Assembly (NCBI GenBank): GCA_910589415.1
Contig: OU342637.1
Coordinates: 29,046,162 to 29,110,161, forward strand
From: Malachius bipustulatus
Taxonomy: Eukaryota > Arthropoda > Insecta > Coleoptera > Melyridae
Reading direction: 5' to 3'
Length of the DNA stretch: 64,000 nt
The notes below the pieces were generated by a model. The model searched no databases and was not told where the DNA came from. It worked only from the letters and a program-made list of their open reading frames with translations. The position numbers and the translations under genes were made by a program. Each line of letters opens with the position of its first letter. The stretch's first letter is position 1. Positions 125-56,527 of the stretch are shown here, one piece after another.

Positions 125-455
125 ACATCACCACCACTAGAGAAGTGTGCCGATCAGAAAGAAAATCAAAAGCTTTAAGCAAAATGATTTGTCGGAAACA
201 TAGTGACTTGCATGGCAAATGCCATCTGATGACTGAAAAGTACAACTTTCAATGTGTCAATCAGAGAACTGTCAGCGTTGGTAGTGAAAAATTGCAGATT
301 TCTCTGGGAGAATCTCTGATTGACACATTGAAAGTTGTACTTTTCAGTCATCAGATGACATTTGCCATGCAAGTCACTATGTTTCCGACAAATCATTTTG
401 CTTAAAGCTTTTGATTTTCTTTCTGATCGGCACACTTCTCTAGTGGTGGTGATGT

Positions 456-504
456 GACAGACTGATGAGATGGAAATAACCATTGAAACATCGATGTCTC
501 TGTC
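456..504 (+). ncRNA. Hammerhead ribozyme, type I, right arm copy
   Basis: Stem I GACAGA (456-461), core CTGATGA (462-468), stem II GATGG/CCATT with loop AAATAA (469-484), core GAAA (485-488), stem III CATCGATG (489-496), TC (497-498), then TCTGTC (499-504). Stem I can extend through a small internal loop to GGTGA (448-452) pairing with TCACC (506-510), the usual site for loop-loop contacts in natural hammerheads. Cleavage is expected after 498. Confidence 0.8.
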
Positions 505-893
505 TTCACCATACCGTTGGAGTAAGTGTGTCGTTCAGAAAGCATTATTGTTTTTCAACAATCGGATGGCTGTAATTGATATAATAATTTATTATTATTC
601 AATTTGTTTCATAGAAACTACTTCCTTTCTAGGAACACAGCTTTGTGGCTAGCTCCATCTCTGATTGGTTTACTGAGATTCGCAAGGTAATTGGTTTTTC
701 AGTGAACTGTCAGCGTTGGTAGTGAAAAATTGCAGATTTCTCTGGGAGAATCTCTGATTGACACATTGAAAGTTGTACTTTTCAGTCATCAGATGGCATT
801 TGCCATGCAAGTCACTATGTTTCCGACAAATCATTTTGCTTAAAGCTTTTGATTTTCTTTCTGATCGGCACACTTCTCTAGTGGTGGTGATGT

Positions 894-942
894 GACAGAC
901 TGATGAGATGGAAATAACCATTGAAACATCGATGTCTCTGTC
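894..942 (+). ncRNA. Hammerhead ribozyme, type I, tandem copy
   Basis: This is identical to the 456-504 motif and sits exactly 438 bases downstream: stem I 894-899, CTGATGA 900-906, stem II 907-922, GAAA 923-926, stem III 927-934, TC 935-936, stem I 937-942. Predicted cleavage is after 936. The flanking GGTGA/TCACC extension of stem I is also conserved. Confidence 0.8.
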
Positions 943-1046
943 TTCACCATACCGTTGGAGTAAGTGTGTCGTTCAGAAAGCATTATTGTTTTTCAACAAT
1001 CGGATGGCTGTAATTGATATAATAATTTATTATTATTCAATTTGTT

Positions 1047-2215
1047 ACATTATTTATAATTAAAAATAGGTAAAGAGGTAGGTAGTTACTTCATATCACT
1101 TCATAGCCGCCACTGCGGCAGGGATTGTTTTTTTTTTATTTAAATAATTGTTATGGAATATTCATTTGATTTATCAGACACTTCTGTGGCAATGAGCAAT
1201 AAACGCGGGAAAATAGGAATAAGAAAAACAAGATTCAATAGTGTATTGATTTTCAACCCCAACCCCAGTTCGGTTAGAGCTGATGGATGAGCCGACGAGT
1301 TACTTTTCTATTATAGTATTATTAGCCCAGTCGGTAAAGTAAAAAATGTACCAAAAGTTCATAAAAAATATTATCTAAGATTTTCCTTCAATAACTGTTA
1401 GTGAAGAGGTTATAGAACATAAGTCCACAAAAATCAGTTCTGAGAGTGCAGCCCGTCCCTCCCCCCCCCCTCAAAAAAAGCTTTAGTAAAAAAATATTTT
1501 TTGCTAATAACTGGTTATCCGTAGAGTCCCTCGAGTTATCCGTAGGTATATCATAAAATATATATCATATTATCATAAATGGATTAGTAGTTTAATTTCG
1601 ACTGTCCAGTTATGTATAATGATATTAGGAATTATTTGGGATTGCAGTCAATTAAATTAAAGAAAACTCTTTTTTCTCTGTCAAGCTTTCGAATTAATTG
1701 TTAGCGCCCAGCCTCTATAGAAAAAATTAAATTACTCGAAAACCAAACAACCTACGAAGAAAAATCAAAATAGGTTTTGAATTGTGCAACATTTTTTTGC
1801 CAAACTCACTGATTATGAATAATTTATAGTAGGTATTTATTTATATAGATATTACAATATTAGTATAAATATAGTACAATAATAATTATTGTCTGTTGGT
1901 TTCTATTTTAAGTACTTGCAGGCCTGATAAAAATAATTTACCTCAATGCTGAAAAAGTTAAAAATAAAAAAATAAGAAAAAGCAATTTTACCACCATATT
2001 AAAGTTATAAAAATTTGGTAATTTTTTATTATTTCCTAAAAATAAAAAAAATAAATAAATAATAAGTAGCCAAATTTTATTTTAATATTACAAAATATTG
2101 CTATACGATAAGATGTACCTACGTAAAAAAATATTAGCTGTATTTTATAGGAAATATGAAAAAAAAATTGCCAAAATTTTGCTAAATTTTATAATATTAC
2201 TAGTCAAAAAGTATT
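1047..2215. other. AT-rich non-coding stretch with a dispersed repeat
   Basis: No gene is seen. The part from 1,327 to about 1,400 matches 12,951-13,027. The part from 1,383 to 1,500 matches 26,727-26,843, where both contain a TTATAGAACATAA word and a pyrimidine tract, so this is a moderately old interspersed repeat. A run of C lies near 1,459. Confidence 0.4.
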
Positions 2216-2445
2216 TTTTTTTTAAAGGAGGGAGCTTCGGTCTTAACTATGTAGGTAAAACAAAGTCGCTCCACTCCAGTAATTATGGGATTCGAGAACA
2301 AGCTCATTCCACCCAGACACAAGTTTGCCAATTAACAATAGACGACACAGACAACCAGGAGCGCGACTGAGAATCGAACTGAGTCCGAGGGAGTCCAACG
2401 GTTTAGCCGTTTGCACGCTAAACCCCCAGGCCACCGCCAGCTCAA
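2216..2445 (-). repeat. tRNA-derived SINE
   Basis: On the minus strand the head (about 2,440 to 2,350) has a box A-like GGCCTGGGGGTTTAGCG, an anticodon-arm-like hairpin ACGGCTAAACCGT, and a box B-like GTTCGATTC. About 110 bases of unrelated body follow, ending in an A-rich tail (TTTAAAAAAAAAA on the minus strand). This order is that of a tRNA-derived SINE with internal Pol III promoter boxes. I could not define target-site duplications. Confidence 0.6.
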
Positions 2446-2931
2446 GTAATTTTTTTTTTCCACATTGCGGTCATGCCTTGACCTAAAAGATAATCTATAA
2501 CATTTATGTATATGTGAACACCAGTTTGGCAAAAAAGTTGTATTTTATGTTCCCCTTCAAAACCTTAGACTATATTAATAAATATATGGACCAAGACATA
2601 AACACTGTAAAAGTGTTCCGACATCCCTCTCTCTCCAAACAAGACTGTTCAAAACAATGAATGCCAGATCAATAATGAAACTGGCACTTACAATAAAAGA
2701 GCGCAACCTCTCCAGTGTAATAAACATCGATAGATCCCTTATACCCGTTTTACTTTGCTACATCTGGCAACATGAATGTTTACATCCTGTCAGACCGTTT
2801 GTTTACATAAAACCATAATAAGAGTTCGTGTTTTTCAAACAGTGCTGAGTTCCTTGTTGTTTATATTTTCAGCTCTAGCTTTCACTCGTTTTAAGCTTTA
2901 ATAATTAATTTTTCAATTAAGTTAAAAAAAA

Positions 2932-2974
2932 ATGGCGAAAACGTGTTCTGTTTTTGAGAAAACTTCGAAAGAAG
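2932..2974 (+). CDS. Possible first coding exon, 14 codons, before a consensus splice donor
   Basis: An ATG after an A-rich leader (AAAAAAATGGCG) opens a frame reading MAKTCSVFEKTSKE. It runs straight into GAAG/GTAAGT, a full-consensus 5' splice site at 2,975. The 250 bases upstream are less AT-rich and contain TTGTTTACAT-like words, which would fit a 5' UTR and promoter. A phase-compatible acceptor-like site lies far away near 10,720 (TTTTAG before ATGAAGAAAAAAC), but the frame there soon stops. The product is unknown. This could be a host gene start or chance, because the exon is short. Confidence 0.3.
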
Positions 2975-3326
2975 GTAAGTCTATCAGTTTCCTACGTAAG
3001 CAACGCAAAGCCGTCAATCAAAACAAAGCATACATGGTCATGGGCGTAGCGTAGTGTAAGTGTTTTATCTTTTAATTTGTGAAAACAATTATTGTTTGAC
3101 AGTTTTTTTTTTCATTTTCGAAAGCATACTGAATACCTACTGAATACTTTGAAAAATGCAACTTGGAAAAATTATTCCATTTAAATAAATAAAAAATACT
3201 GACTTTTTGAAAGTACATTACCTGCTATTATTATTGTCAACCTCTAATTTAAGATAATCAGAATATGTAGAGGGGGAATAATATTCAAACAATATCATCA
3301 AAGAATATGAAATAGAAGACTTTGAC
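2975..3326. other. AT-rich, intron-like
   Basis: Nothing recognisable is seen apart from the start of the MITE that follows. Confidence 0.3.
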
Positions 3327-10805: not shown

Positions 10806-13290
10806 GCACTAAATAATAATCGTGCTACTGTTAATTTCGAAGATATTCCTTGCCCTGAAAGTGAAGAAAAAAATAGCAATGCGACCGTAGTGCCACAGAT
10901 GCCTTAGTTAGTGACCTTAATATTAGATTGCAATAACTGTTTTTAGCTTCTTACCCACCCAGCACCCCTATTTCGCTCCTTGATCCAGAAAAAATTGATG
11001 GAACTTAGGATACGTGGATGTAAATATTTACAAAAGTTTTTTTTCGAAAAAAGAATATAATTAAAAATAATAATAATTATTAATATAAAAATTATTTTGA
11101 ATGTTATTCATTTTTGTTTAATTGATTTTTATCTTATACCGAACGACATGAAAAATTCAATATGGCGGCCATAAGAAAAACAAAAGTAGGCTATGAAAAC
11201 TCTGGAATTTAGTCGGCTTTGAAAATTTTTATAATGTGAAAGGGATAGCTTTTGACGATGTAAGTCTACAAAAAATAATTAATTAATCTCCAATAATAAA
11301 AAAGATATGGCTAAAAAAAGAAATTTTGATTGTTCAGGTTTTTCAGGATATTTCAGCAACGACTGGAAATATTCAAAGAAAAAATTCAAATTAAAAAAAA
11401 AATTAAGCATTAAATTGTGCAGCTTTTCTCTAATTTAACCGAGTCTGTATCTCTTGCCGTTTCCAAGATCCCCATGTAGTACTGTCACTTACAACTGGAC
11501 ACATTATTGTATAGGTTTAGGTAGGTCCTATAATAATAGGTAACATGCTAACATGCAATGATCAAAATATAGGTAAATACTTTTAATGGCTTGAATTTTA
11601 TTTTGATCAGAGCATAATAACGTACGTTGATTGTTTAAAATAAATGTTTTGTTTTTACAATAATTTCATAACACGGAATAAGTACCTACCGTGGGCTGCT
11701 TGCTATATTGACATTTTTTGCCCTCTTAGACCAGCATGCCAGCTGGTTAGTTCTCCAGCAGACCAACAGTTTTGTGATACTAGTAAAAGAATACACATAC
11801 TTTACCTACCAGTCCTACCACCTAGAAATTGAAGAGTGAACTGGAAGACTGGAACTGACTGATTCTTTTGTTTGCTACTTACTCGTTTGTTCCTAAATTA
11901 TGATTTCAGAACATAAATCCCTATCTGGTCGGCAGTAAAATAAACGCAAGTAAAACCGTTGCTGAATAAAATCTTATGTCTTCACACCCGTCTCATTTTA
12001 TGGTACTTAACCACTGAATCATCTTGTTTTATAATGCAGGGTGTCCCAGCTCATTCGAAGCGGTCTCTGTAGGCCAAACGATGGACTTTTTAAAAAAACT
12101 TTTTGAAAATTCAAGTACAGGATCACAATGGCCATAATTTAAAATTATTTTGGGTTATACAGAGTGTCCCATATGAGAGTGGCATATCAAAGTTATGTTT
12201 TTTTAAATGGAATGCTCCTATGTTATTGCATTTTTACATTGTCTGAAAAGAGAAAATAGGATTGGCTTTTACAGTTGGTGTTTAAATTCAGAAGTTTTTG
12301 AGTTATAATCAAGTGAAAATCGTAATTTTTCAAGTTCAAGGCCCTGTACAACGAAAACGGTTCAAGATAGAGAAAAACGGCTTACATGTCCCTATTTTCA
12401 CTTTTTATGTACTATCCTATGGTGTAGATAAAATGTTTATACAGGGTTATAAAAAATTTGAAAAATTCTGAGATTTCTCCACGCGTCACCAAATAAAAAA
12501 ATCAAAGAAAGTACAAATCTTTCTATACCATAGGATAGTACCTAAAAAGTTAAAATAGGGACATGTAAGCCGTTTTTCCCTATCTTCAGCCGTTTTCGTT
12601 GTACAGGGCCTTGAACTTGAAAAATGACGATTTTCAGTTGTTTATAACTCAAAAACTTCTGAATTTAAACACCAACTGTAAAAGCCAATCTTATTTCCTC
12701 TTCTCAGACAATCTAAAAATGCAATAACATAGGAGCATTCCATTTTAAAAAACATAACTTTGATATGCCACTCTCATATGGGACACTCTGTATACTCCAA
12801 AATATTTTTAAATTATGGCCATTGTGATCCTCTACTTGAATTCGCAAATTTTTTTTTGAAAAAATCCATCGTTTGGCCTACAGAGACCGCTTCGAATAAG
12901 CTGGGACACCCTGTATATTAAAATCTTTTTGTGAAATACACAATATGTAGTCCAGTCAGTAAAGTAAAAAATGTACCATCATAAAAAATTAAAAAATCTT
13001 ATTATATGAGATTTTTCTCCAATAAAATAAATATATAAATAAATATCGTATGGCTGTGGTAAAGCCCAAGTGTTGTTAGTGAATTAAATTGGGTAAATAT
13101 ATACATCTACGTATCCTAAGTTCCATCAATTTTTTCGGGACCGAGGAGCGAAATAGGGGTGCTGGGTGGGTAAGAGCTAAAAACAGCCATTGCAAACTAA
13201 TATTAAGGTCACAACTATGGCCTCTTTGACACTACGGTCGCATTGCTATTTTTTTCTTCATTTCATTTTTCTTCAACAGTAGCACGATTA
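10806..13290. mobile_element. Inverted-repeat pair 2 kb apart, enclosing another palindrome
   Basis: The segment 10,806-11,035 (TAATAATCGTGCTACTGTTA through ACTTAGGATACGTGGATGTA) is repeated in reverse orientation at about 13,085-13,290. The left arm has a short open run reading RATVNFEDIPCPESEEK, which looks like degraded coding sequence. It is only partly kept in the right arm. The 12,037-12,913 foldback lies between the arms, so it probably inserted into this older element. A dispersed repeat related to 13.6-14.2 kb fills 11,140-11,450. Confidence 0.55.
12037..12913. mobile_element. CAGGGTGTCC-type foldback with shell and core
   Basis: The ends are CAGGGTGTCCCAGCT and AGCTGGGACACCCTG. The outer shell of about 135 bp (CATTCGAAGCGGTCTCTGTA on the left) is inverted on the right. 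Inside it a second boundary, CAGAGTGTCCCATATGA, opens an inner palindrome that contains CCTGTACAACGAAAACGG and its reverse complement. The same two-layer structure recurs at 50,817, and the same inner core with another shell at 30,475. No transposase is encoded. Confidence 0.85.
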
Positions 13291-17046: not shown

Positions 17047-17937
17047 ACCTCAGCCTGTATCATAAAATTAAACAACGACCGACTTTTCTGAAAGGTCGTA
17101 TTGTATTTATGGCTTATACAATTTATGGTAGTCATCTTATTAGCCTATTAAATAAAAATTTAATATTTAACTATTAAAAAAGTTAAAAACGCTACATTTG
17201 AATTTTTATCGAAAAATCCTATCGAAATTGTATAAGTAGGTACCTATATATGTCTTTTTTGCAGTACAATTTACAATGGCATACCGAAAATGTAATAAAA
17301 ATAGTTTACCTTTTTGTACGAGACAAAAGATGTCACGTGACCCGGACTCTGGGTGCAACTTTTTTTAAGTAAAAGCTTAATGAACGGAAATAAAATGAAA
17401 TTAATAAATGTAATATACCTTTAATACTATTCAAACATTAATAGTTTCTACAATGTTTTTTTTTTTAGTAGTAAGTAAGTATCCATTAGCGTAAGGATGA
17501 TAATAATTGCGCTAGGACGAACCAGCCTGTACAAAGAGACAATTATTCGTCTATCCGGATCCGGGGACACTTAGATGTTCTGTACTGTATATCCACAGAA
17601 TAGACATATTATTCTGTGCTAATACTGCTTATCCGAGGCCCTGAGAAGTGGCAACAAAGCAGGGTTTCCGGTAATCGGATGGGTATATACTTTTAGTGCA
17701 GTGGGCTATGTATTGACATAAGAACGTTCAGGGATTCTAAAATTCTTAAGGATATAACCAGATTTGTATGTTGTGAAATGTTTACCCCTCGCAGGTTGCT
17801 TCGATTAATATGATGTTTCTCTTCACTTTCAGTTATAATACACACCATCAAGTCTATTATTAAGGGCGGGACTCCGGTTACCTGTGCAACGTACCGGGCT
17901 TCGTGAAATAAGCTTAATGTGTATATATATATATATG
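17047..17937. other. Non-coding stretch before the Penelope-like element
   Basis: No gene is recognised. The stretch ends with a TA tract at about 17,920-17,935, which directly abuts the truncated retroelement. Confidence 0.3.
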
Positions 17938-18774
17938 CATAATAATTCAGTACCTTTCCTAGACACTAAAATTATTAGAAATAACAACTCTCTGATAACA
18001 GAATGGTACACTAAACCTACATACTCTGGCAGGTACATAAATTATTATTCACACCATCCTTACAAAACTAAAATAAATTTAATAATGAATATGAAAAATA
18101 AAATTTTAGAAGTCACACATGAATCATTAAAACAAATTAATCTACATAAATTTTATAATATTATGATTCAAAATTCATATCCAAAAAAACTATTAGATAA
18201 ATTAATTTTCTCAACTACAAATTCATTACAGTTAGTACAAAACTTGAATAATTCTAACGATAGACAAGAAACTGAACAAACAAAATATATTTCTCTTCCA
18301 TACATCAAACCTATTTCAATACAACTAGCTTCAATCCTTAAAACCTCTGAAAGAGATAAAGTTGCTTTTAAAACTGAAAAAACCGTCAAACAATTGTTTT
18401 CAAAATTAAAAGACAAAACACCTACACTACAACAATCAAATGTTGTTTACTCTATACCATGCCTAAACTGTGATCTAAATTATGTAGGACAAACTTCAAG
18501 AAATCTTAAGGACCGCATAACATCTCACAAAAGTGATATAAAAAGAAAGACAGGCGCTTGTGCTTTAACAAAACATATTACTTCCACTGGTCACGAAGCA
18601 GACTATAACAACTCCATAGTTTTAGATTCTGAAGTTAACACTTTTAAACGCACATTTTTGGAAATGGTTAGGATTTCACAAAGACCAAATTTGATAAATT
18701 CTAAGAAAGACATAGACAACTTAAGTAATATTTATAGTCTTTTATTAGAAATAGATAAAAATAAGAATAAATAA
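17938..18774 (+). pseudogene. Penelope-like retroelement polyprotein, C-terminal part with GIY-YIG endonuclease
   Basis: An open frame of 278 codons from the TA tract to TAA encodes the end of a Penelope-like protein. It starts with the last part of the reverse transcriptase and thumb (VPFLDTKI, WYTKPTYSGRYINYYSHHP), then a linker, then a GIY-YIG nuclease. The nuclease has VVY and the CxxC pair in IPCLNCDLNYVGQTSR, followed by R211, H215, ALTKH...TGH (H231, H237), LEMVRI (E260) and PNLIN. Residue numbers count from the in-frame ATG at 17,884, which lies in unrelated DNA and is not a real start. The usual protein is about 700-900 residues, so most of the RT is missing: a 5' truncation typical of these elements. 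The endonuclease frame itself is uninterrupted. Confidence 0.9.
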
Positions 18775-19390
18775 TTTCCAAATATTTAGTGTCTTTCAAA
18801 AATTATTTTTATTTTTACTCTGTTAAATATTTTTTCGATTATTTTTCAGTAAATATCTAGGTATTTTGTGTTACAATAACTTCACTTTCTTAAACAATAA
18901 ATTAATACCTGCTTCCTTCCTTACAATGAAATCAAAAATGATCAAATTGACATCTTTCAAAAAAATTTAAATAAAAATTATTCATATGTAATTCAAATGT
19001 AAAAAAACTTCTAAATTATTTTAAACCCTTTTTTGGAATTAACTTTCCTATGTTATTCGTTCTTGTTATTAGTTATTAGTTTATTAATTCATATTTGTAT
19101 GTTTTTATCCACTACACTTGTCCATGAAAATGATTAACTTTTTAACATCTTCAATTTTTACTCAATTTCTGTAAGTATTATGTAATTTTTTAGTTCCTAA
19201 TTTTTCATTTATACTTACAATTATTTATGTTAATCTTTTCAGTACCCCTGAAGAAGAGCTAAAGAAAAGCTCGAAAGCTTGGGTTAATTAAAAAGAAAAA
19301 AGAGAAATCCAACGTTTTTAATTGGCTGCTATCCCAACATAATTATCAATATTTTATAATTACCTACAGCCAAAACAAATCTAATATTTC
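18775..19390 (+). mobile_element. 3' part of the Penelope-like element
   Basis: This is AT-rich 3' untranslated sequence. It contains CCCCTGAAGAAGAGC followed by AAGAAAAGCTCGAAAGCTTG at about 19,249-19,285, which forms a GAGCT/AGCTC hairpin of the kind found near the 3' end of Penelope-like elements. The element seems to end before the TA tract at 19,391-19,414. TA tracts at both ends suggest insertion into a TA microsatellite. I see no hammerhead here. Confidence 0.6.
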
Positions 19391-20442: not shown

Positions 20443-21714
20443 GGTAGGTGGAGTTTTCCCAAAAAAAAATCGGATTATTTTTCATTAAATTCATTTTGCG
20501 GAAAATTTACTATTTTTTGAATCCCTGTATGAGCAAGATGGCAAAAAAACTTTCACATCAAGTTAACAGGATTGAAAGAAAATTAATTGAAATTTGAGTT
20601 AATGCAAAAAAATTTGAATTTTTTCCATTAATAAGCCAGTGGCGTGGGTAGGAAAAGAGTGAAAATGGCTTAATTTCTATAACAGTTTTTGAGCACATTT
20701 TTGAAGGAATTGAACTAAAATTTTTACAGTAGACAACTATACTAATACTCTTTAATCTTAAAAAATTTCAAGGATCAAATAAAAAAAATGGCGGAGATAT
20801 TTAAATTTATTTTACATGATGTAAATTTCTCTAAAATTTTAAAAACGCTCTAGTAGCTTCATCTTTCAAGATTAGTGGGAGAAATTTTTTACTCTTGTGA
20901 AACTTTGGGATGACGTTAAATTTTCGTTGAAAAATTTTTCAAAAGTCGCGTTACTTCTACAGGGTGTCCTTTAAAATTTCGAAACATCCGGTCCTATGGC
21001 ACGGTTTTCTGGTAGCAGTTTTCAATCTAGGAGGCTGAAATTTTTATGGGAGGAAGATATTATCCACAAGTAGTGGTCTGGTATTGCATTTTTGAGCAAA
21101 ATCGATCGAGCCGTTTCAAAATGGCGGCTTTTTGAATTTTAGGGAAAAAGGCTATTTTTTAGTCCCTGTATAAGCAATATAGAAAGAAAACTTTTCACAA
21201 CAAAATAATGAGGATGACAATTAAAGGCTTGTTTAATAACTTAGCGATTGAATGTAATATTCAGACCCGGGACTGCTTGATTTAAAACCAGCACCAGCAC
21301 CAGACCAGCGCACCGTTTTCATCGCGCTCGGCTCGGGTGGGACCACCCATGCAGATATGACTGCTCCTGCCAACCCCAATTGCAGAAAATAAAAACTCCT
21401 ACAAACCTGTATTAACAAGATTGGATTAAAATGATTTGAAATTTGAATTAATGCAATAAAATTTTTATTATTTTCATCAGCAAGCTAGTGGCGTGGGTAA
21501 GAAAATGGTAAAAATGGCTAAATTTCTTTAATTGATTATGAGCACATTTTTGAGGGAATTTACCTGAAATTTTCGGAGTAGACAACTACACTAATAGCTT
21601 GTAACTCTGAAACAAATTGAATAATAATAAATTATTATATCAATTACAGCAATCCGATTGTTGAAAAACAATAATGCTTTCTGAACGACACATTTACTCC
21701 AACGGTATGGTGAA

Positions 21715-21763
21715 GACAGAGACATCGATGTTTCAATGGTTATTTCCATCTCATCAGTCTATC
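21715..21763 (-). ncRNA. Hammerhead ribozyme, left arm of second foldback
   Basis: The motif is the same as at 76-124, with intact CTGATGA and GAAA. Stem I reads GATAGA instead of GACAGA and still pairs with TCTGTC through a U.G wobble. Confidence 0.7.
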
Positions 21764-21925
21764 ATATCACCACCACTAGAGAAGTGTGCCGATCAGAAAG
21801 AAAATCAAAAGCTTTAAGCAAAATGATTTGTCGGAAACAAATTTGTTAATGTTTCCGACAAATCATTTTGCTTAAAGTTTTTGATTTTCTTTCTGATCGG
21901 CACACTTCTCTAGTGGTGGTGATAT

Positions 21926-21974
21926 GATAGACTGATGAGATGGAAATAACCATTGAAACATCGATGTCTCTGTC
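21926..21974 (+). ncRNA. Hammerhead ribozyme, right arm of second foldback
   Basis: GATAGA (21,926-21,931), CTGATGA, stem II, GAAA, CATCGATG, TC and TCTGTC (to 21,974) are all present. It carries the same C-to-T change in stem I as the opposite arm. Predicted cleavage is after 21,968. Confidence 0.7.
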
Positions 21975-22025
21975 TTCACCATACCGTTGGAGTAAATGTG
22001 TCGTTCAGAAAGCATTATTGTTTTT

Positions 22026-22821
22026 TATTAGCTTGTAACTCTCCAAAATTTAAAGAAGCAAATAAGAGAAATGGCGGAGTTTTTCGAATTTTTTTACATG
22101 ATGTTTATTTCTCTAAAATTTCAAATGTTCGGTTTTCAGAACTCGCCTCTGTAACTTTTTAAAGTTAGTCAGTGGCGGGTATATAGGACAAGAGACGAAA
22201 TTGTTAAATTTTGTCAATTTTTTTTTTGGTTTATTATGTATAAAAATCTATTTTATGGCACGCTTTCAAACGAAATGAAATGAAATTTTCACAGTAAACA
22301 ACTACGTAAATTCGACCTGACTATTGAAAAATTCAGAAAGCCAATTTAAAAGGCGGCAAAAATTTTCATAGTTGAATCGCATAAAAATACACTGTTTCTG
22401 CGATTGATGCGCAAGAAGGTTTTTATTAGCTTGTAACTCTCCAAAATTTAAAGAAGCAAATAAGAGAAATGGCGGAGTTTTTCGAATTTTTTTACATGAT
22501 GTTTATTTCTCTAAAATTTCAAATGTTCGGTTTTCAGAACTCGCCTCTGTAACTTTTTAAAGTTAGTCAGTGGCGGGTATATAGGACAAGAGACGAAATT
22601 GTTAAATTTTGTCAATTTTTTTTTTGGTTTATTATGTATAAAAATCTATTTTATGGCACGCTTTCAAACGAAATGAAATGAAATTTTCACAGTAAACAAC
22701 TACGTAAATTCGACCTGACTATTGAAAAATTCAGAAAGCCAATTTAAAAGGCGGCAAAAATTTTCATAGTTGAATCGCATAAAAATACACTGTTTCTGCG
22801 ATTGATGCGCAAGAAGGTTTT
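22026..22821 (+). repeat. Perfect tandem duplication, 398-bp unit
   Basis: The unit from TAGCTTGTAACTCTCC to GATGCGCAAGAAGGT occurs at 22,026-22,423 and again at 22,424-22,821. I found no differences by eye. This is either very recent or an assembly artefact. The unit is block C of the preceding array. Confidence 0.85.
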
Positions 22822-22879
22822 TTCATTTTTTGGCCTATATCTCGAAAAGAAGCGTTTTTTGACAATCCTGTACAAAATA

Positions 22880-24409: not shown

Positions 24410-25760
24410 CAGGGTGTCCCGTAATTAGCGTGCAATACTGAAACAGCAGATTCTATTTTCAAAAATATGAAAAAAAGTTCTATAAAAATAGGTCGAGAAA
24501 TGCTTCCTAAGGGGGCTACAGCCCCCGAAAGGGGAGCCCGTGAAGATGGTTTTTATGTAATACCTCCGAACCGGTTCAAGATAGAAAAGTGAAATTTTGG
24601 GAATTTATCAAACTTTTTATGACCGATAAGATGCAATTACAAAAATTAAAAAATTTCCTTCAGGGGGGGGGGGTCAGATAGGTGAAGAGTGAGGTTAAAA
24701 TCACCCTAACTTTTTTTGTATGTACCTCGTGCCAGAATTTGAGATCAGATTATGAAATGTTGAAGTTTTTTACACAAAAAAGGTCGTCTTGCTGAATTTC
24801 GATAACATGCACCGTTTTCGCTTAAAATCGATTTGAAAATTACCTTACATGGCATAAAAATTCACATTGAAACACAACTAGAGAAAAATATTCAACGTAG
24901 GCCATGGATCACGGGATGTAATAAGTAACAGTTTGTTTGAAAATTGTGTTTCACGCTAATTAAGTAGAACAAAAAGAAAATTATATGGATTCTGCAATGG
25001 TCGTGATCTGGCGGCTGAGTATGAATACCGACGACGATTTTCGAACCGAAGAGCTTCTACAAATGCGGGTCAAATTTTCACCGGCATTAGTCAACGTTTA
25101 CCGGAAAATGGCAATTTTTGACTTGCTCGCGGTCAGGGGTGACCCCATCATAGGAATCGTGGTGTTGAAAATTTTTGCCATTTTTTTGCTCTATAAATTT
25201 TCTTTTTCTTCTATACTTAATTAGCGTGAAACACAATTTTCAAACAAATTGTCACATCCCGTGATCCATCGCCTACGTTGAATATTTTTCTCTAGTTGTG
25301 TTTCAATATGAATTTTTATGCCATGTAAGGTAATTTTCAAATCGATTTTAAGCGCCAACGGTGCATGTTATCGAAATTCAGCAAGACGACCTTTTTTGTG
25401 TAAAAAACTTCAACATTTCATAATCTGATCTCAAATTCTGGCACGAGGTACATACAAAAAAAGTTAGGGTGATTTTAACCTCACTCTTCACCTATCTGAC
25501 CCCCCCTGATGTAAATTTTTAAATTTTTGTAATTGCATCTTATTGGTCATCAAAAGTTTGATAAATTCCCAAACTTTCACTTTTCTATCTTGAACGGGTT
25601 CGGAGGTAATAAATAAAAACCATCTTCATGGGCTCCCCTTTCGGGGGCTGTAGCCCCCTTAGGAAGCATTTCTCGACCTATTTTTATAGAAACTTTTTTT
25701 CATATTTTTGAAAATAGAATCTGCTGTTTCAGTATTGCACGCTAATTACGGGACACCCTG
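24410..25760. mobile_element. CAGGGTGTCC-type foldback, 1.35 kb, with a GC-rich loop
   Basis: The ends are CAGGGTGTCCCGTAATTAGC and its inverse. The arms are about 570 bp and very similar, and they include a CTACAGCCCCCGAAAGGGG block. The central 24,984-25,192 is unpaired, more GC-rich, and holds an open frame of 79 codons on the plus strand (24,985-25,224; MDSAMVVIWRLSMNTDDDF at its start) with no known domain. Confidence 0.85.
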
Positions 25761-30377: not shown

Positions 30378-30474
30378 AATCTTCGAAAAGAAAAGCGAGG
30401 GAGTTGACTACGACAACCGACGACGATGACATTGACAACGACCACAATTAGGTATATATCAAGAAAAACATATA

Positions 30475-31352
30475 CAGGGTTATTCACGGTATACGCCACG
30501 GAAGTTTATGGCCGTGTCTCTGGATTTAAGGATCTTTTTATTTTTGGAGTGGATAGAGACCCGGCAGAGGTACGTTTTAAAATTATATTCATAATGTACA
30601 GGCTGTCCCAAAAGCATGAAACATATCAAAGTTATGTTTTTTTAAATGACATGCTCCTATGTTATTGCATTTTTAGATTGTCTGAGAAGAGAAAATAAGA
30701 TTGGCTTTTACAGTTGGTGTTGAAATTCAGAAGTTTTTGAGTTATAAGCAAGTGAAAATCGTCATTTTTCAAGTTCATGGCCCTGTACAACGAAAACGGC
30801 TGAAGATAGAGAAAAACGGCTTACATGTCCCTATTTTAACTTTTCATGTACTATCCTACGATGTAGATGAAATGTTTATACAGGGTGATAAAAAATTTGA
30901 AAAATTCTGAGATTTCTCCACGCGTCGCCAAATAAAAAATCAAAGAAAGCACAAATGTTTCTAAACCATAGGATAGTACATGAAAAGTTAAAATAGGGAC
31001 ATGTATGCCGTTTTTCTCTATCTTGAACCGTTTTCGTTGTACAGGGCCTTGAACTTGAAAAAAGACGATTTTCACTTGTTTATAACTCACAAACTTCTGA
31101 ATTTAAACACCAACTGTGAAAGTCAATTTTATTTTCTCTTCTCAGACAATCTAAAAATGCAATAACATAGGAGCATGCCATTTAAAAAAACATAACTTTG
31201 ATATGTTTCATACTTTTAGGACACCCTGTACATTATGAATATAATTTTAAAACGTACCTCTGCCGGGTCTCTATCCACTCCAAAAATAAAAAGATCCTAA
31301 AATCCAGAGACACGGCCATAAACTTCCGTGGCGTATACCGTGAATAACCCTG
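30475..31352. mobile_element. Two-layer foldback: CAGGGTTATTCAC shell around a CAGGCTGTCC core
   Basis: The outer arms 30,475-30,598 (CAGGGTTATTCACGGTATAC) pair with 31,229-31,352. The inner element, 30,599-31,228, has ends CAGGCTGTCCCA and GGACACCCTG and contains the same core as the foldbacks at 12,037 and 50,817. The shell is unrelated to theirs. The layers are exactly concentric, with ATAATGTA on one side and TACATTAT on the other side of the core. Confidence 0.85.
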
Positions 31353-31536
31353 TATTATGACGAAAGAAAAACTCTCGGAAAAATAATTTTGAAAAAACGC
31401 GCCATCAACTCTACCTTAAAGTGGTGTAAAAAAATTGGTAAAAAGTTGGGGAAAATCAAAAATCTTGCCGTGAAATTTCTTAAATCGGTTTTTTCTATTA
31501 CAAGAGACCTTGTTACCCAAAAATGTGTCTTTAGCA

Positions 31537-37165: not shown

Positions 37166-38183
37166 TTTGAAATATTATCTGCAGTGAAATGTTTCATTAG
37201 AGCCGAATTGAAACTATTCACCAGATTTTCACAAAACCACAGTGTTCCATGTGGCGATTCTATTTCGGTTCGCTACTCCGATGTCATGAAATCCCATTGG
37301 ACTCTCCATCTAGTACACGGATTAAACATGCCAAAGAGCCATAGAGAGTTCTGGCTATGCCGGTAACGATTATAGATGTATTTATCGGCAGCTTAGTGGC
37401 GACCGGCTGCCATGTTCACCACTTAACGGCTGGTTACGCGCCCCATTACCGACGCTTTATTCTGACACGCTAATGGCATCTGATAGGAGTTAAATGCATT
37501 CTGCAGCTAGAACGTATGGGTGTTTTTATTGCGAATATCAGGCAGGCGGTGTCACAGCTCCAATCTGCCTATATTGTATACGCTTATATGTAATATGGAT
37601 TGGCTATTTATTGCACGAGGCCTTATCTTGAGAGAATCATTATAAATGAGGCGAGTTAACACATAGGGTAAAACGCCTTTAGTAAACGTCAATTTTCCGC
37701 ATATTATTGTTGAACAAATTAGTAAATTGCTTTATTTCTTCATTTCTATTTGCCTGACAGTTTGAGAACATTCACCGAGGTCGATTTCTTAGATTTATTA
37801 GACTGTTTATAGTTAGCGGAGATAATGTTATAACGTTACATCCTGGGAAAAGAACTAGATCAACTAGCGATAAAAAGTAGAGAGGGTAGTAAGTAGTAAC
37901 AAATAGGAATACGGTCGGGTTAGCTTAGCGCCACGTTGCAACACTTACAATACTAAGTCCAATCAAAAGTTGATTTTTCTCATCGTTGTAATGACCTCAT
38001 AGGGACGTCATAAACATCACATGCGAGAAATGACGACAAAAATTATGTGATTTTTTGGTATTGTGACGTCGGGGACCAAAAATTACAAAAAAATACGTTA
38101 TTATTACTTACGGGACTTTGCTGCCTGGGAAGTTAAAAAAAAATTATCGTAAATTGTATTATAGAAGATGAATACGTCGCATA
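37166..38183. other. Non-coding stretch
   Basis: Nothing is recognised. A 70-codon ORF at 37,154-37,366 is next to the decayed hammerhead and has no known motif. Confidence 0.3.
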
Positions 38184-39370
38184 CAGGGTGTCCCAAAATT
38201 CCATGGACATGGAGCAACCACAGATTACTGAAGTAAAAAAAAGTCGCTCGGACCAAACTTATCTCTATTCCAAAATGCTTCGTTTGTCCGTTAGAGGGCT
38301 TCAAAGTCTTTTGAAAATTTTAGTTTTTTTGAAATAGCTCAAAGTCGGCTGATTCCAATTCGATGAAATTTGGTAGGTAAATTTCTTATTAAAAGTACTA
38401 ATTTCTGATGTACATGATAATTTGACGGAAACCCGGGAAGGGGTGAAACTACCCCTACCCTCCATTAAAATCGTCGTAATTGTTGATAGGGCAGCAGGAA
38501 CACTGTTAATGTTTTTTTGTTTGAAAGATACATCGTTTTAGCCCATTTTTGGTCTCTTACAAAAATTTGTATCTCTCCGAGGTGCTATGTGACAAAATAA
38601 ATTAGTCGATGGTACCTAATCAAAATTTTATTTCATTCTTTTAATTTGAAACCAAATTTTCAATTGTCAGGTGATTATTTGATTTAATCTCATAGAAGAT
38701 GTTTAGTATGGTGCGGTTTTTTTTCAGGTGTTTGCAAACGGTTTTTTTCAAACGCAGTAAACAGTTTGCAAAACGACGAGGTTCCAAGAAAAGTTAAAAT
38801 CATTTTTTTGCGCAGGATGGAACTTTCTAGGGTCCAAACCGACGCCCACATCGAGCATCTTTTATGAAATTAGATCAAATAATCACCTGACAATTGAAAA
38901 TTTGATTCCAAATTAAAAGAATGAAATAAAAATTTAGTTATCATCGACTAATTTATTTTATCACATAGCACCTCGGAAAGATACAGATTTTTGTAGGAGA
39001 CCAAAAATGGGCTAAAACTAGGTATCTTTCAAACAAAAAAACATGTACAGCGTTCCTGCTACCCTATCAACAATTACGATCGATTTTAATGGAGGGTAGG
39101 GGTAGTTTCACCCCTTCCCGGGTTTCCGTCAAATTATCATGTACATCAGAAATTAGTACTTTTAATAAGAAATTTACCTACCAAATTTTATCGAATTGGA
39201 ATCAGCCGATCTTGAGCTATTTCAAAAAAACTAAAATTTTCAAAAGACTTTGAAGCCCTCTAGCGGACAAACGAAGCATTTTGGTATAGAGATAAGTTTG
39301 GTCCGAGCGACTTTTTTTTACCTCAGTAATCTGTGGTTGCTCCATGTCCATGGAATATTGGGACACCCTG
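38184..39370. mobile_element. CAGGGTGTCC-type foldback, 1.19 kb
   Basis: The ends CAGGGTGTCCCAAAATTCCA and the inverse (TGGAATATTGGGACACCCTG) bound arms of about 520 bp that match closely (CACAGATTACTG, TAGTCGATGGTACC, CAATTGTCAGGTGATTATTT). The unpaired centre is at about 38,712-38,850. Small ORFs in each arm are the same sequence read twice. Confidence 0.85.
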
Positions 39371-41041
39371 TATATAGCTTATACCAATATAAACATATGT
39401 TACCTTTAGCAATACATGCGGTGTTTAATCACATCCCAATACATCACAGGTTGGCGGCGGTTTGCAGGTTGCATATCCCCGTCGATCGCCGGTTAACTCG
39501 GGGGATGAATGGGGATATTGACAGCTACTAGTCCCTGGATAGTCGTGCACATCGCTCACATGCAAACACGGATAACTGCATCGCTCAATGGGGTGAGACT
39601 GATAAGGGATGGTGTACAAATCGCCGAGCACCAGAGGGTGACAGCTGGGTAGTGATTGAGCGGGGAAAAACGTGAAAGAGTCGGTCTAGATGGGGTAGTT
39701 TGCCTGATTATTCGTTAGTGCCGTCAATGAAATGTCGCCATGATGGGATTATAGAGAAGTGTTATTTTGGTTTTATTACCGCTCAGTAAAGAGACGTTTT
39801 TGTAATATAAATTGGATTGCGAATGTTGCATTTTCACGTTTTTTGACATGCCGAATAACGCTTTGTAATGGAATTATTGGAGGGCTCTAGTGTTCCCAGT
39901 GTAAAGCGAGGCTGACCGAAACTGATTTACCTCGTTATTATGCCAGAATTTTTTTAGCATAGACCATGGAATTCTATTACAAGATAAATTGCATTTACAT
40001 TCACCACTAATAGAATCAATTTTGACTGAAAAATCAATTTCTGTTGAAGTTACGTCAACTTCATCATCTTCTTTTTCTTTTATTTTCATATTAGTGAAAA
40101 ATTTGTACGAGAAAACCTCACTATAGTCCGTGAATAAATTTTCTGTAGTTGTCAGTGGCTCTCAAACTGACGTAAGCGGTTCAATTCATTATTTGAATGA
40201 TTCCTTCAATAATTTACGCTCGTTCACAACTTGACATTTATCTGTTTGATATTTTCTGGTGAAATTAAAAATATTAATTCGGACGGCTAGTGTGACGTCA
40301 CATCTGATTTTTTAAACTTAACCGTACCATAGCTGGCCTGGACTAGGAATTGGGAAACGTTCATGAGAATACTGGAAAATTTGGCTGATTCTAGAGATTT
40401 GCCTAAAAATTCATGTTTCAAGACACCGAGGAAATTGGTTTTAAAAACTGCTTAATTTGTGTCAGAGATTCAGTTACAGATTCGCAAAGCAGAGGTGCAT
40501 AATATTTTCAGACAAGGAAACTAAAAGTTAAGGACTGTAAATAATAACTAAAGATAATAACTCCAAAGAATGAACGAATGTTTATGGTTTGTAATCATGT
40601 TCAAATCTGGATACCTTGACTGGGCGTGAGTTATTGATAGAGCTCTTCTTGATTGTATTGACAATGAGAGGTAGTTCTTTCGTCACTCAACACCCAAGAC
40701 ACGGTGGTGCTGGAAAACTCAATTTGAAAAATCGCACCCTGATGCTTTCCAGTTTGTGCTAGTATGTGCTAATATTTCGATATTAGCCAGAATCTAACCG
40801 GAGGCATTCTGTATGCATCTGATTGCTCGAATACTACCCCTCCAAGCAATTATTATTGTGAATAACTCCAGGGTATGAAATTCAAGCGGTTAATACCGAA
40901 TGTCGGCGTGTAAACACTGTAAAATCCAATGCATGTTCTACATTTACATCTTCATAGCAGCTACTACATTTGTCTCTCCACTACGTCAATAGTGAGAATA
41001 TAGTCTACACTTAGACAGCAGAGGATGCGGTTTTCTTGGTT
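39371..41041. other. Mixed-composition non-coding stretch
   Basis: 39,400-39,700 is GC-richer, with no recognised gene. A minus-strand open frame at 39,874-40,089 (71 codons, MKIKEKEDDEVDVTSTEIDF at its start, a CKCNLSC run in the middle, GAG/GTAAAT donor-like site after WHNNE) is coding-like but unidentified. Confidence 0.3.
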
Positions 41042-50717: not shown

Positions 50718-50800
50718 AATCGACCATAGTCGAGTGGATAAGGTCATAGACTCTTGATACAAAGAACCCGGATTCAAACCCAGGTATGGCGATGATAAGC
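50718..50800 (+). repeat. tRNA-derived sequence
   Basis: Box A-like TAGTCGAGTGGATAAGG is followed 35 bases later by box B-like GGATTCAAACC. The spacing is tRNA-like, but the acceptor and T stems do not close. It lies directly before the foldback at 50,817 and may be a SINE head or a tRNA relic. Confidence 0.4.
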
Positions 50801-50816
50801 TTTTTTTCTTCTACAG

Positions 50817-51684
50817 CAGGGTGTCCCAGCTTATTCGAAGCAGTCTCTGTAGGCCAAACGAAGGATTTTTTCCAAAAAATTTTTGCAAATTCAAGTACAG
50901 AATCACAATGGCAATAATTTAAAATTATTTTGGAGTATACAGGGTGTCCCATATGACAGTGGCATATCAAAGTTATGTTTTTTTAAATGAAATGCTAATA
51001 TGTTATCGCATTTTTGAGAAGTGTAAATAAGATTGGCTTTTACAGTTGGTGTTTAAATTCAGAAGTTTTTGAGTTATAAACAAGTGAAAATCGTCATTTT
51101 TCAAGTTCAAGGCCCTGTACAACGAAAACGGCTGAAGATAGGGAAAAACGGCTTACATGTCCCTATTTTAACTTTTCATGTACTATCCTATGATGTAGAG
51201 GACATGTTTATACAGGGTGATAAAAAATTTGAAAAATTCTAAGATTTCTCCACGTGTCACCAAATAAAAAAATCAAAGAAAGTACAAATGTTTCTACACC
51301 ATAGGATAGTACATAAAAAGTTAAAATAGGGACATGTAAACCGTTTTTCCCTATCTTCAGCCGTTTTCGTTATACAGGGCCTTGAACTTGGAAAATGACG
51401 ATTTTCACTTGTTTATAACTCAAAAACTTCTGAATTCAAACACCAACTGTGAAAGCCAATCTTATTTTCTCTTTTCAGACATTCTAAAATTGCAATAACG
51501 TAGGAGCATTCCATTTAAAAAAACATAACTTTGATATGCCACTGTCATATGGGACACTCTGTATACTCCAAAATAATTTTACATTATGGCCATTGTGATT
51601 CTGTACTTGAATTTTCAAAAAGTTTTTTTGAAAAGTCCATCGTTTGGCCTACAGAGACCGCTTCGAATAAGCTGGGACACCCTG
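50817..51684. mobile_element. CAGGGTGTCC-type foldback, sister of the 12.0-kb element
   Basis: Ends, shell (CTTATTCGAAGCAGTCTCTG) and inner core match 12,037-12,913 over the whole length, with small differences (868 against 877 bp). The inner boundary CAGGGTGTCCCATATGACAG is again present. ORFs in the arms occur as near-identical pairs and are arm sequence. Confidence 0.85.
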
Positions 51685-51728
51685 TATACATTATATTTCC
51701 AAATAATAATTGTCACATTTGATAATAG

Positions 51729-55001: not shown

Positions 55002-55189
55002 TATAGGAAATTACTTTTCACCTAAAATAAAAAAAAATATATATATAAAAGGCCATATACTATTCAACCATTTTCTAGATACGCTCGTGGGAATGCCAGA
55101 AAACTTTATGTTATCTTAAGTTGGTGACGCACAGGATGTAGTACCTGATAATACGCAGAATTTTGTCATCTTCCACTTGGGGTCACTAC

Positions 55190-56105
55190 CTCAGCTCAAA
55201 ATTTAGGCTAACTTCGGTCGTTGCTCAAATGTCCTGAAAAGCTGATCGTTGCACGTTGCACGCGTCAAAATTTATGCTAACTTCTTCAATCGTTGCTGAA
55301 ATATCCTGAAAATGTGGTGTCATTTTCACACCTGAAAGTTTAGGTTAATTTTAGTCTTTGCTGGGGATATCCTGAAAAAATGGTGTCACTTTCACAACTC
55401 AAATTTTAGGCTAACTTAAGTCGTTGCTAAAAATATCCCGAAAAAAAAATGATCATTGCCGAAATATTGTGAAAAGCGCGGGTCCGTTCCAGTCCTCCAA
55501 ATTTAGGGTAATTTTAGTCGTTGCAGAAATATCCCAAAAAACTGATCGTTGCTGAAATATTCTGAAGGACTGATCGTTACTTATCCTGTTAAATATCCTG
55601 AAAAACTGCTCTTTCAGACCTCAATACTTAGGCTAACTTCAGTCGTTGCTGAAATATCCTGAAAAACTGATCATTTCTGAAATATCCTCAAAAACTGATC
55701 GTTTCAGGTCTCAAAGTTATGGCTAACTTCGGTCGTTGCCGAGGTATCCTGAAAAACTTATCGTTGCTGAAATATCCTGGTGACACTTCCACACACCTTA
55801 AAATTTCTTCAGTCGTTGCTGAAATATTCTGAAAAACTGATCGTTGCAGGTTTCAAAATTTAGACTAACTTCAGTCGTTGCTGAAGTATATCCTGAAAAA
55901 CTAATCAATGCCGAAATATCCTGAAAAACTGATCGTTGCAGGCCTCAAAATTTATGCTAACTTCTTCAATCGTTGCAGAAATATCTTGAAAAAATGGTGT
56001 CATTTTCACATCTCAAAATTTAGGCTAATTTCAGTCGTTGCTGGGGATATCCTGAAAAAATGGTGTCACTTTCACAATTCAAAATTCAGGCTATATTAAG
56101 TCGTT
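55190..56105 (+). repeat. Satellite-like array, about 0.9 kb
   Basis: Many imperfect copies of GCTGAAATATCCTGAAAAAC, CTGATCGTTGCAGG, CTCAAAATTTAGGCTAACTT and CAGTCGTTGCTGAAATATCC occur. Units combine in variable order with higher-order variants that carry GGTGTCATTTTCACA. The array lies between two direct copies of the right arm of the preceding foldback. Confidence 0.8.
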
Positions 56106-56527
56106 ATTTTTTTAGCAGCCTTAGTTTTACATTTTTGAAAATATTCCTTAAACGAGGCGTCATCTTGAAAAGTGTTATTCTCTTATTTATCCTTAAAATA
56201 CGATTTTATACATGACGTTGGATTTTGTCTGCCCAGTTACCAGGCACCCTGTATAAGAAATTACTTTCCACTTAAAATTAGCAGTGTTTCGCCGTTTTTT
56301 TTAAGGTAATTTGCTTTTTGAGGCCTGTTTCTACCCCTTGGAATTTGACTTTTCTAAACGGCTTCCTAATTTTTGGAACTGCCTACTATAAAATGAATCC
56401 GTATGCCACAATTTAGCTTTCTATGTCAAGGGAATTTAGATGGAGTTGAACTGAGAGTCAGTTTTGTATTAATATTAGGTAATTTGAATTTTTTATTAAG
56501 TGGCTATTATAAAAGGCCATATACTAT
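56106..56527 (+). repeat. Second copy of the foldback right arm and flank
   Basis: GCAGCCTTAGTTTTACA through TTACCAGGCACCCTGTATAA repeats 54,860-55,005 in direct orientation. The flank word TAAAAGGCCATATACTATT also occurs after both copies (about 55,046 and 56,509). Confidence 0.7.

Follow-up and report, generated by a model that had tools for sequence, protein, structure and literature searches.

Two predicted hammerhead ribozymes in direct orientation near the start of the window (the whole 64-kb stretch of DNA analysed here) belong to one arm of a head-to-head insertion built from 438-nt tandem units. Insertions of this family have two arms in a fixed orientation, ends at a pair of start sites, target duplications, and variants shared between the arms, and their arrangement follows an insertion grammar resembling that of Penelope-like elements (PLEs). 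The best explanation, which we regard as probable taken as a whole, is that the window holds a member of a young family of non-LTR retrozymes, widely spread in the genome, and that its copies arise when the circular RNA of a metazoan retrozyme is reverse-transcribed from both nicked target strands by a PLE-type protein. Retrozymes are already known and a role of PLEs is already suspected; what is new is the paired-site, two-armed insertion.

Predicted hammerhead ribozymes in the window

A descriptor scan located type I hammerhead cores on the plus strand at 462–498 and 900–936, in direct orientation, exactly 438 bp apart and within flanking sequence that is 99% identical, as an earlier note on this DNA had described. 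From stem I to stem I, the two copies occupy positions 456–504 and 894–942. Each core comprises CUGAUGA, GAAA, and UC, with a stem I of 6 bp that is extendable via an internal loop, a stem II of 5 bp with a basal G-U pair, and a stem III of 3–4 bp, in agreement with the short stem III and extendable stem I that had been reported, and this core places the predicted cleavage after 498 and 936. While both of these copies had been listed correctly, three further cores from the same scan had not: one on the minus strand at 118–82 (the hammerhead copy of the left arm, 76–124), one on the plus strand at 21,932–21,968, and one on the minus strand at 21,757–21,721. In shuffled sequence, the strict type I descriptor finds 0.015 matches per 64 kb, both strands included.

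The Rfam covariance-model search that had been suggested as a check did not recover the ribozyme: nothing was reported at the gathering score in the whole window, and no hammerhead family appeared at E ≤ 10 in positions 1–1200. The identity of the ribozyme therefore rests on the descriptor and on conservation. With the unit numbered from the first base after the predicted cleavage (u1, window position 499), the 13 core positions show no change in 1269 bases relative to the majority (33 loci, 95–101 copies per position), and in the same loci 12 changes were counted in 5127 bases of u386–438 as a whole and 175 in 29,446 bases of u1–385. The minimum-free-energy (MFE) fold of an isolated 81-nt stretch kept stems I and II and paired part of the core elsewhere. 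The exact ribozyme pattern had no matches among viral contigs, a set that may omit records of the window's own genome.

Structure of the window insertion and its second copy

The whole object is an insertion of 1458 bp that extends from L009 3588, as revealed by the upstream DNA, 413 bp before the window, to window position 1045, with units in the order minus-minus-plus-plus. The left arm is on the minus strand, measures 681 nt, and runs from u57, at L009 3588, to u253; its part inside the window is 1–267. The right arm (261–1045, plus strand) starts from u201 and covers 790 nt as aligned, or 1.8 laps of the unit, with its end aligned at u114 and placed at about u109–114. The two arms overlap by 7 nt of microhomology. 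On the plus strand of the right arm, the predicted 438-nt RNA monomer, u1–u438, corresponds to 499–936, start site 1 (u50–57), where one arm of most insertions begins, to 548–555, and start site 2 (u111–116), where the other arm begins, to 609–614. A 14-bp target duplication, TACATTATTTATAA, lies at 1046–1059, its left copy at L009 3574–3587, outside the window. The host of the insertion is another repeat (1046–3000), the first bases of which matched at 40 places and seven fetched copies of which are approximately 95–98% identical; these seven copies have the target site once and uninterrupted, i.e., as an empty site.

The earlier note had read the two hammerheads as a candidate retrozyme, a reading that is well supported, and had not recognised the direct copies as the right arm of an insertion with head-to-head structure; with this context, the information on insertion that the structure holds was overlooked too.

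A second retrozyme copy lies at 21,609–22,028. Its minus arm (21,609–21,839) starts from u112–116, is 235 nt long, and contains the core at 21,757–21,721, and its plus arm (21,849–22,025) is 177 nt long, ends at u57, and contains the core at 21,932–21,968. The 14-bp duplication TAGCTTGTAACTCT at 21,595–21,608 (plus strand) recurs at 22,029–22,042; it is weaker evidence than the first because it lies among related repeats and beside an exact tandem duplication. The latter, of 398 bp (22,022–22,822), begins at the right end of the retrozyme locus and was perhaps set off at a T-tract.

Insertion pattern across the genome

The assembly of this one genome (544 Mb, 52 contigs) was searched with the unit as the query, which yielded 1373 first-look candidates. 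The strand order of the best 40, which were scored, was minus then plus at 38 loci, plus only at one, minus only at one, and the reverse order at none. Thirty-three of these 40 loci were read in sequence; the remaining seven, all minus-plus, were judged by table and stand outside the 46 insertions counted below. The second window locus was added, which brought the first sample to 34 loci read. L019 was left out because it is a truncated view of L029, a locus in which the plus arm is broken by about 640 nt of other sequence, and the row of L060 was entered by hand.

By BLAST, 32 of the 34 loci are two-armed, all with minus then plus, and 29 have one end at u50–64 and the other at u111–122 as aligned. 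L034 is a thirtieth locus that follows the rule, with a second arm of about 22 nt read by eye. Both ends at one site were found at none of the 34 loci. The exceptions comprise L020, which has one arm; L051, which is rearranged and has its left end at u383; L056, with a left end at neither site; and L053, with a right end at u284 and no duplication found. To counter a possible bias of the first query towards arms extending to site 2, a second, site-neutral search was made with a query ending before both sites. It gave 1230 candidates, the best 40 of which were scored; 26 loci were new, and the first 12 of these in listing order were read. The paired-site rule fits 8 of the 12 by BLAST and 9 when L083, with an arm of about 11 nt read by eye, is included. 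Of the others, L089 has its start at about u18; L084 is one-armed and lacks a duplication; and in L088, which also lacks one, the right end is damaged near u101, so that a same-site pair is possible there.

Across both samples, 39 of the 46 insertions have one end at about u49–64 and the other at about u111–123, and seven break the rule; a clear same-site pair of ends is absent from the 46, and every two-armed insertion among them is minus then plus. These 46 loci were picked by high score from a thousand or more first-look candidates and are therefore probably young. Arm length is variable, from about 11 nt to 3816 nt (8.7 laps) when arms read by eye are included; in the first sample, the arms ending at site 1 measure 56–1690 nt and those ending at site 2 measure 67–3816 nt.

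In the first sample, 30 of the 32 loci with two arms are flanked by target duplications of 9–15 bp, and those of 26 loci are 12–15 bp long (with a slack of 12 bases at each end). When the flanks of different loci were combined as a control, 201 of 300 draws had no duplication and the maximum, 10 bp, was reached once. In the second sample, duplications of 12–17 bp were found at 9 of the 12 loci, one with a mismatch, and that of L083 (12 bp) was read by eye. The duplicated targets are AT-rich, with a GC content of 0.264 over 39 duplications, some typed from readings by eye, among which no sharp target motif was found.

Classification of the element

Metazoan non-LTR retrozymes possess a type I hammerhead in units of 150–450 bp and are reported from insects among other phyla (PMC7229834, in part). 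The 438-bp tandem unit falls in this range, with up to 8.7 laps in one arm, and is slightly above the 170–400 nt stated for metazoan retrozyme circles in the accessible part of the same source. The GC content of the unit is 0.374, below the limit of 45–50% for this class, and the longest stop-free frame over three tandem units is 100 aa; the 119-aa frames present in the window span the arm junction. Folding of the monomer RNA yields a z-score of −7.5, and 74% of the bases are paired in the circular MFE structure. The claim of a retrozyme is thus upheld by the 438-nt tandem monomer, its GC content, self-pairing, the target duplications, and many near-identical copies. The element resembles metazoan non-LTR retrozymes in its tandem unit, low GC content, self-paired RNA, duplications longer than 4 bp, and lack of coding capacity (PMC7229834, in part). 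These retrozymes are described as tandem repeats, from dimers upward; head-to-head arms and two start sites do not occur in that description, as far as the accessible part of the text goes (PMC7229834).

With the LTR retrozymes of plants, the element has in common that it is non-autonomous, that it carries hammerheads, and that its movement is thought to proceed via circular RNA, whereas type III hammerheads, LTRs, a primer-binding site, and 4-bp duplications are features of the plant elements (PMC7229834, PMC7761336, both in part). The type I topology and the duplications of 9–17 bp found here differ from the type III topology and 4-bp duplications of that class. Judged by the features tested, the element is a metazoan non-LTR retrozyme, for which expression and self-cleavage are predicted. 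The open-access literature searched yielded no beetle retrozyme, no title of relevance on hammerheads in insects and aphids, and no retrozyme insertion with two arms that each have their own start site; the key PLE papers of 2014 and 2021 lie outside this literature.

Comparison with Penelope-like elements

The window itself contains a 5′-truncated PLE with a GIY-YIG domain (17,935–19,390, plus strand), which is situated between (TA)n stretches and serves as a comparison element, not as part of the retrozyme. The named relatives of its protein are mostly from beetles, which supports the insect part of the earlier reading indirectly. A minimal hammerhead-like motif of this PLE lies at 19,244–19,284 on the plus strand, with stem II following after one extra base and a predicted cut after 19,280, and its tail lies at 19,358–19,390 on the same strand. 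Copies of the family, for which the best 40 of 423 candidates were scored, end either at 19,358–19,362 or at 19,389/19,390, i.e., at two sites 31 bp apart. One end per site was observed in five independent two-armed loci, namely L062/L063 (whose left end is alignable only from 19,352), L073, L074, L076, and L077; L075 was counted together with L074, as both arms and one flank are common to the two. Fuller PLE copies encode a reverse transcriptase and a GIY-YIG domain, in an ORF that begins just past site 2. In a search widened to more PLEs, with the best 100 of 2069 candidates scored, neighbours within 6 kb are minus-plus in 22 cases, plus-minus in one, and on the same strand in 10, a count in which two equally spaced pairs on C17 may be one duplicated locus.

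In published work on the PLE of Anolis, both target strands are nicked and extended by the PLE protein, and reverse transcription begins at a pair of neighbouring internal sites by which the tail is defined (PMC11167929). In Adineta PLEs, one inverted repeat of the two bears the tail, and the head-to-head arrangement is the commonest (PMC3846280, in part). The retrozyme insertions correspond to this grammar in 39 of 46 cases, with head-to-head arms and two end sites, one of which bears the tail. Points of agreement are the target duplications, the presence of repeats both in tandem and inverted, the head-to-head order, and a hammerhead upstream of the start sites (PMC11167929, PMC3846280, in part). 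The extra tail on one inverted repeat of PLEs measures 30–40 bp in print, as far as the accessible text goes (PMC11167929, PMC3846280), and 31 bp in the PLEs of the present genome.

Unlike PLEs, the retrozyme encodes no protein, i.e., its unit lacks a reverse transcriptase or GIY-YIG frame, both of which are encoded by PLEs of the same genome; it further differs in its stem III of 3–4 bp, its long stem I, and a spacing between the sites, and thus a tail, of about 60 nt as opposed to 31 nt. Comparison with the window PLE and with eight further PLE 3′ regions detected no common sequence (best E values of 0.86 and 0.61), and neither start-site sequence nor spacing is common to the retrozyme and a PLE of the genome, one PLE family having been end-mapped. 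Start site 1 of the retrozyme lies within a predicted hairpin loop, and start site 2 lies in a hairpin loop only in the local fold, a difference to which no meaning is attached. Judged from these comparisons of DNA sequence, the retrozyme insertion follows a PLE-like grammar with a longer tail, without being a PLE.

A hammerhead-like motif was found in four of the eight further PLE 3′ regions (L093, L094, L095, and L098), which show, like the window PLE, a conserved CTGANGA...GAAA with stem II offset by one base. This motif may constitute an independent RNA element of PLEs.

Animal retrozyme repeats show no motif revealing an autonomous or mobilising partner, according to the accessible part of PMC7761336. 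PLEs are considered strong candidates for moving retrozymes because both have type I hammerheads, occur in tandem, and co-exist (PMC7229834, in part), and retrozymes may rely on PLEs or on LINEs (PMC8969392, PMC11722881, both in part). The family of the window PLE is probably not the partner, since this PLE sits in (TA)n and the retrozyme does not. A common insertion grammar of a retrozyme and PLEs in one genome makes the idea of mobilisation by PLEs testable, in other genomes and with purified PLE protein.

Proposed mechanism

We infer self-cleavage, a circular RNA, and a PLE-type protein as the machine behind these insertions. Transcripts of tandem units would cut themselves at the hammerhead, and the resulting 438-nt monomer, or sometimes a dimer, would circularise. 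This circle would then be inserted by a protein of the PLE type, equipped with a reverse transcriptase and a GIY-YIG endonuclease, which would nick both target strands at points about 12–14 bp apart. The 3′ end of each strand could then prime cDNA synthesis on one and the same RNA, with start site 1 used by one end and start site 2 by the other; these sites are separated by about 60 nt and lie downstream of the ribozyme. Synthesis of each cDNA would proceed around the template for less than one lap or for as many as nearly nine, and the two products would be joined in the middle of the insertion, often via a few bases of microhomology.

A more general proposal, for and against which we see about equal weight, is that retrotransposition of the PLE type is inherently two-primer: one RNP, probably a dimer, would hold a single circular RNA and assign one start site to each nicked strand, both cDNAs would be rolling-circle products of that molecule, and nearly every insertion would be born head-to-head. 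Retrozymes would then be circles bearing a PLE-style start-site module behind the ribozyme.

Nature of the template

Variants shared by the two arms of one locus bear on the template. Twenty-two such variants were found, in 17 of 27 loci, and 10 of the 22 are private to their own locus; shuffling of arms among loci gave a mean of 1.5 common variants and at most 5 in 2000 shuffles. Of the 68 variants covered in both arms, 46 are discordant, and copying errors or later mutations must therefore be common. Before arm ends were trimmed, agreement of all copies within a locus was low, at 24 of 179 variant sites, or 22 of the 165 covered in both arms; the trimmed, shuffled test is preferred because many of the untrimmed variant sites lie at arm ends or in one deletion.

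The template could instead be a long linear multimeric transcript, subject to the same two-strand priming. Transcribable tandem arrays exist, the Anolis PLE protein inserted RNA in vitro with or without a working hammerhead, i.e., also when the hammerhead was mutated (PMC11167929), and both L038 and L052 contain a variant that one unit has and its neighbour lacks, an order that recurs in both arms, as in a multimer. In the pooled unit-order comparison between arms, the counts stood at 24 to 35 for units of the same order and at 56 to 57 for units of different order, which lends no support, and the informative sites of this test were only L052 u6 and L038 u387. Two loci speak against the linear multimer, though not as proof. 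In L060, with 8.7 and 2.65 laps (11.4 in total), u82C and u174G occur in all ten full units of both arms, for which a linear template would need more than eight units all carrying both variants; among the best 40 of 1022 candidates, exact matches to this variant stretch were found only within L060, and the nearest others, two on C7, have one mismatch. Alternation at a third variable site of L060, u409, is not clean. In L054, two unit types alternate lap by lap, which is the expectation for a circular dimer. These patterns favour repeated reading of a circle over a long linear multimer as the template, and we consider the latter unlikely. L060 is a possible natural record of one RNA template. 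Provided that the template is a circle, the arms also preserve in DNA the number of rounds for which it was copied, nearly nine at most.

Priming of the two arms

In LINE-1 twin priming, one RNA is primed by the second nicked strand as well, which yields an inverted part together with junction microhomology and target duplications, in likeness to the retrozyme insertions. However, it is occasional in LINE-1 and begins at various internal positions, whereas nearly all retrozyme loci read have two arms with one defined site per strand. Twin priming on the retrozyme RNA by a LINE-type, non-PLE protein would be in keeping with the missing sequence link between the retrozyme and the PLEs compared. 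Nevertheless, the two fixed internal start sites behind the hammerhead, one per arm, are the pattern of PLEs both here and in Anolis (PMC11167929), and no poly(A) tail was seen at the 3′ end of the arms read; thus, a LINE-type protein appears rather improbable as the machine.

Hairpin self-priming, in which a single cDNA, or an antisense transcript, would form a hairpin from whose end its second half is extended, has been put forward for PLE palindromes in Adineta (PMC3846280, in part) and would account for head-to-head palindromes as such. It predicts the same unit position on both sides of the junction, a symmetry that was observed within 10 nt at 3 of 32 junctions, including the second window locus (u320/u319). 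The remaining 29 are asymmetric, which disfavours self-priming, and the start of the far end at the other of two fixed sites is left without an account, such that we judge it very unlikely. For head-to-head PLE structures, the asymmetric junctions of the retrozyme offer an alternative to self-priming.

A DNA element of the foldback or MITE-like type, or a satellite with an incidental hammerhead-like motif, would share the inverted structure with target duplications, and other foldback elements are present in the window; this explanation is scarcely credible given that the ends are not inverted copies of one another (u57 and about u114 in the window insertion, u50–64 versus u111–122 in the family), that arm lengths and lap numbers vary by locus, and that the ribozyme core is invariant. 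Although some libraries are known to produce inverted chimeras, the dispersal of the insertions over many contigs, most with their own target duplication, and the intact empty site of the window copy leave an assembly or library artefact a negligible chance.

Other repeats

Three related foldback elements of approximately 0.9 kb lie at 12,027–12,923, 30,472–31,355, and 50,797–51,687, with arms of about 400 nt on either side of some 92 nt of central sequence; ends of the CAGGGTGTCCCA type occur in some of them. Two more inverted-repeat structures of about 1.2 kb, at 24,470–25,699 and 38,181–39,373, have arms that are 92–98% complementary. A cluster of diverged tandem repeats of 66 to 90 bp with TCAGTCGTTGC-type motifs occupies 55,187–56,278. 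Outside the window, the flank of the retrozyme copy L084 (1–534) contains another CTGATGAGTCC motif, possibly of a different hammerhead family.
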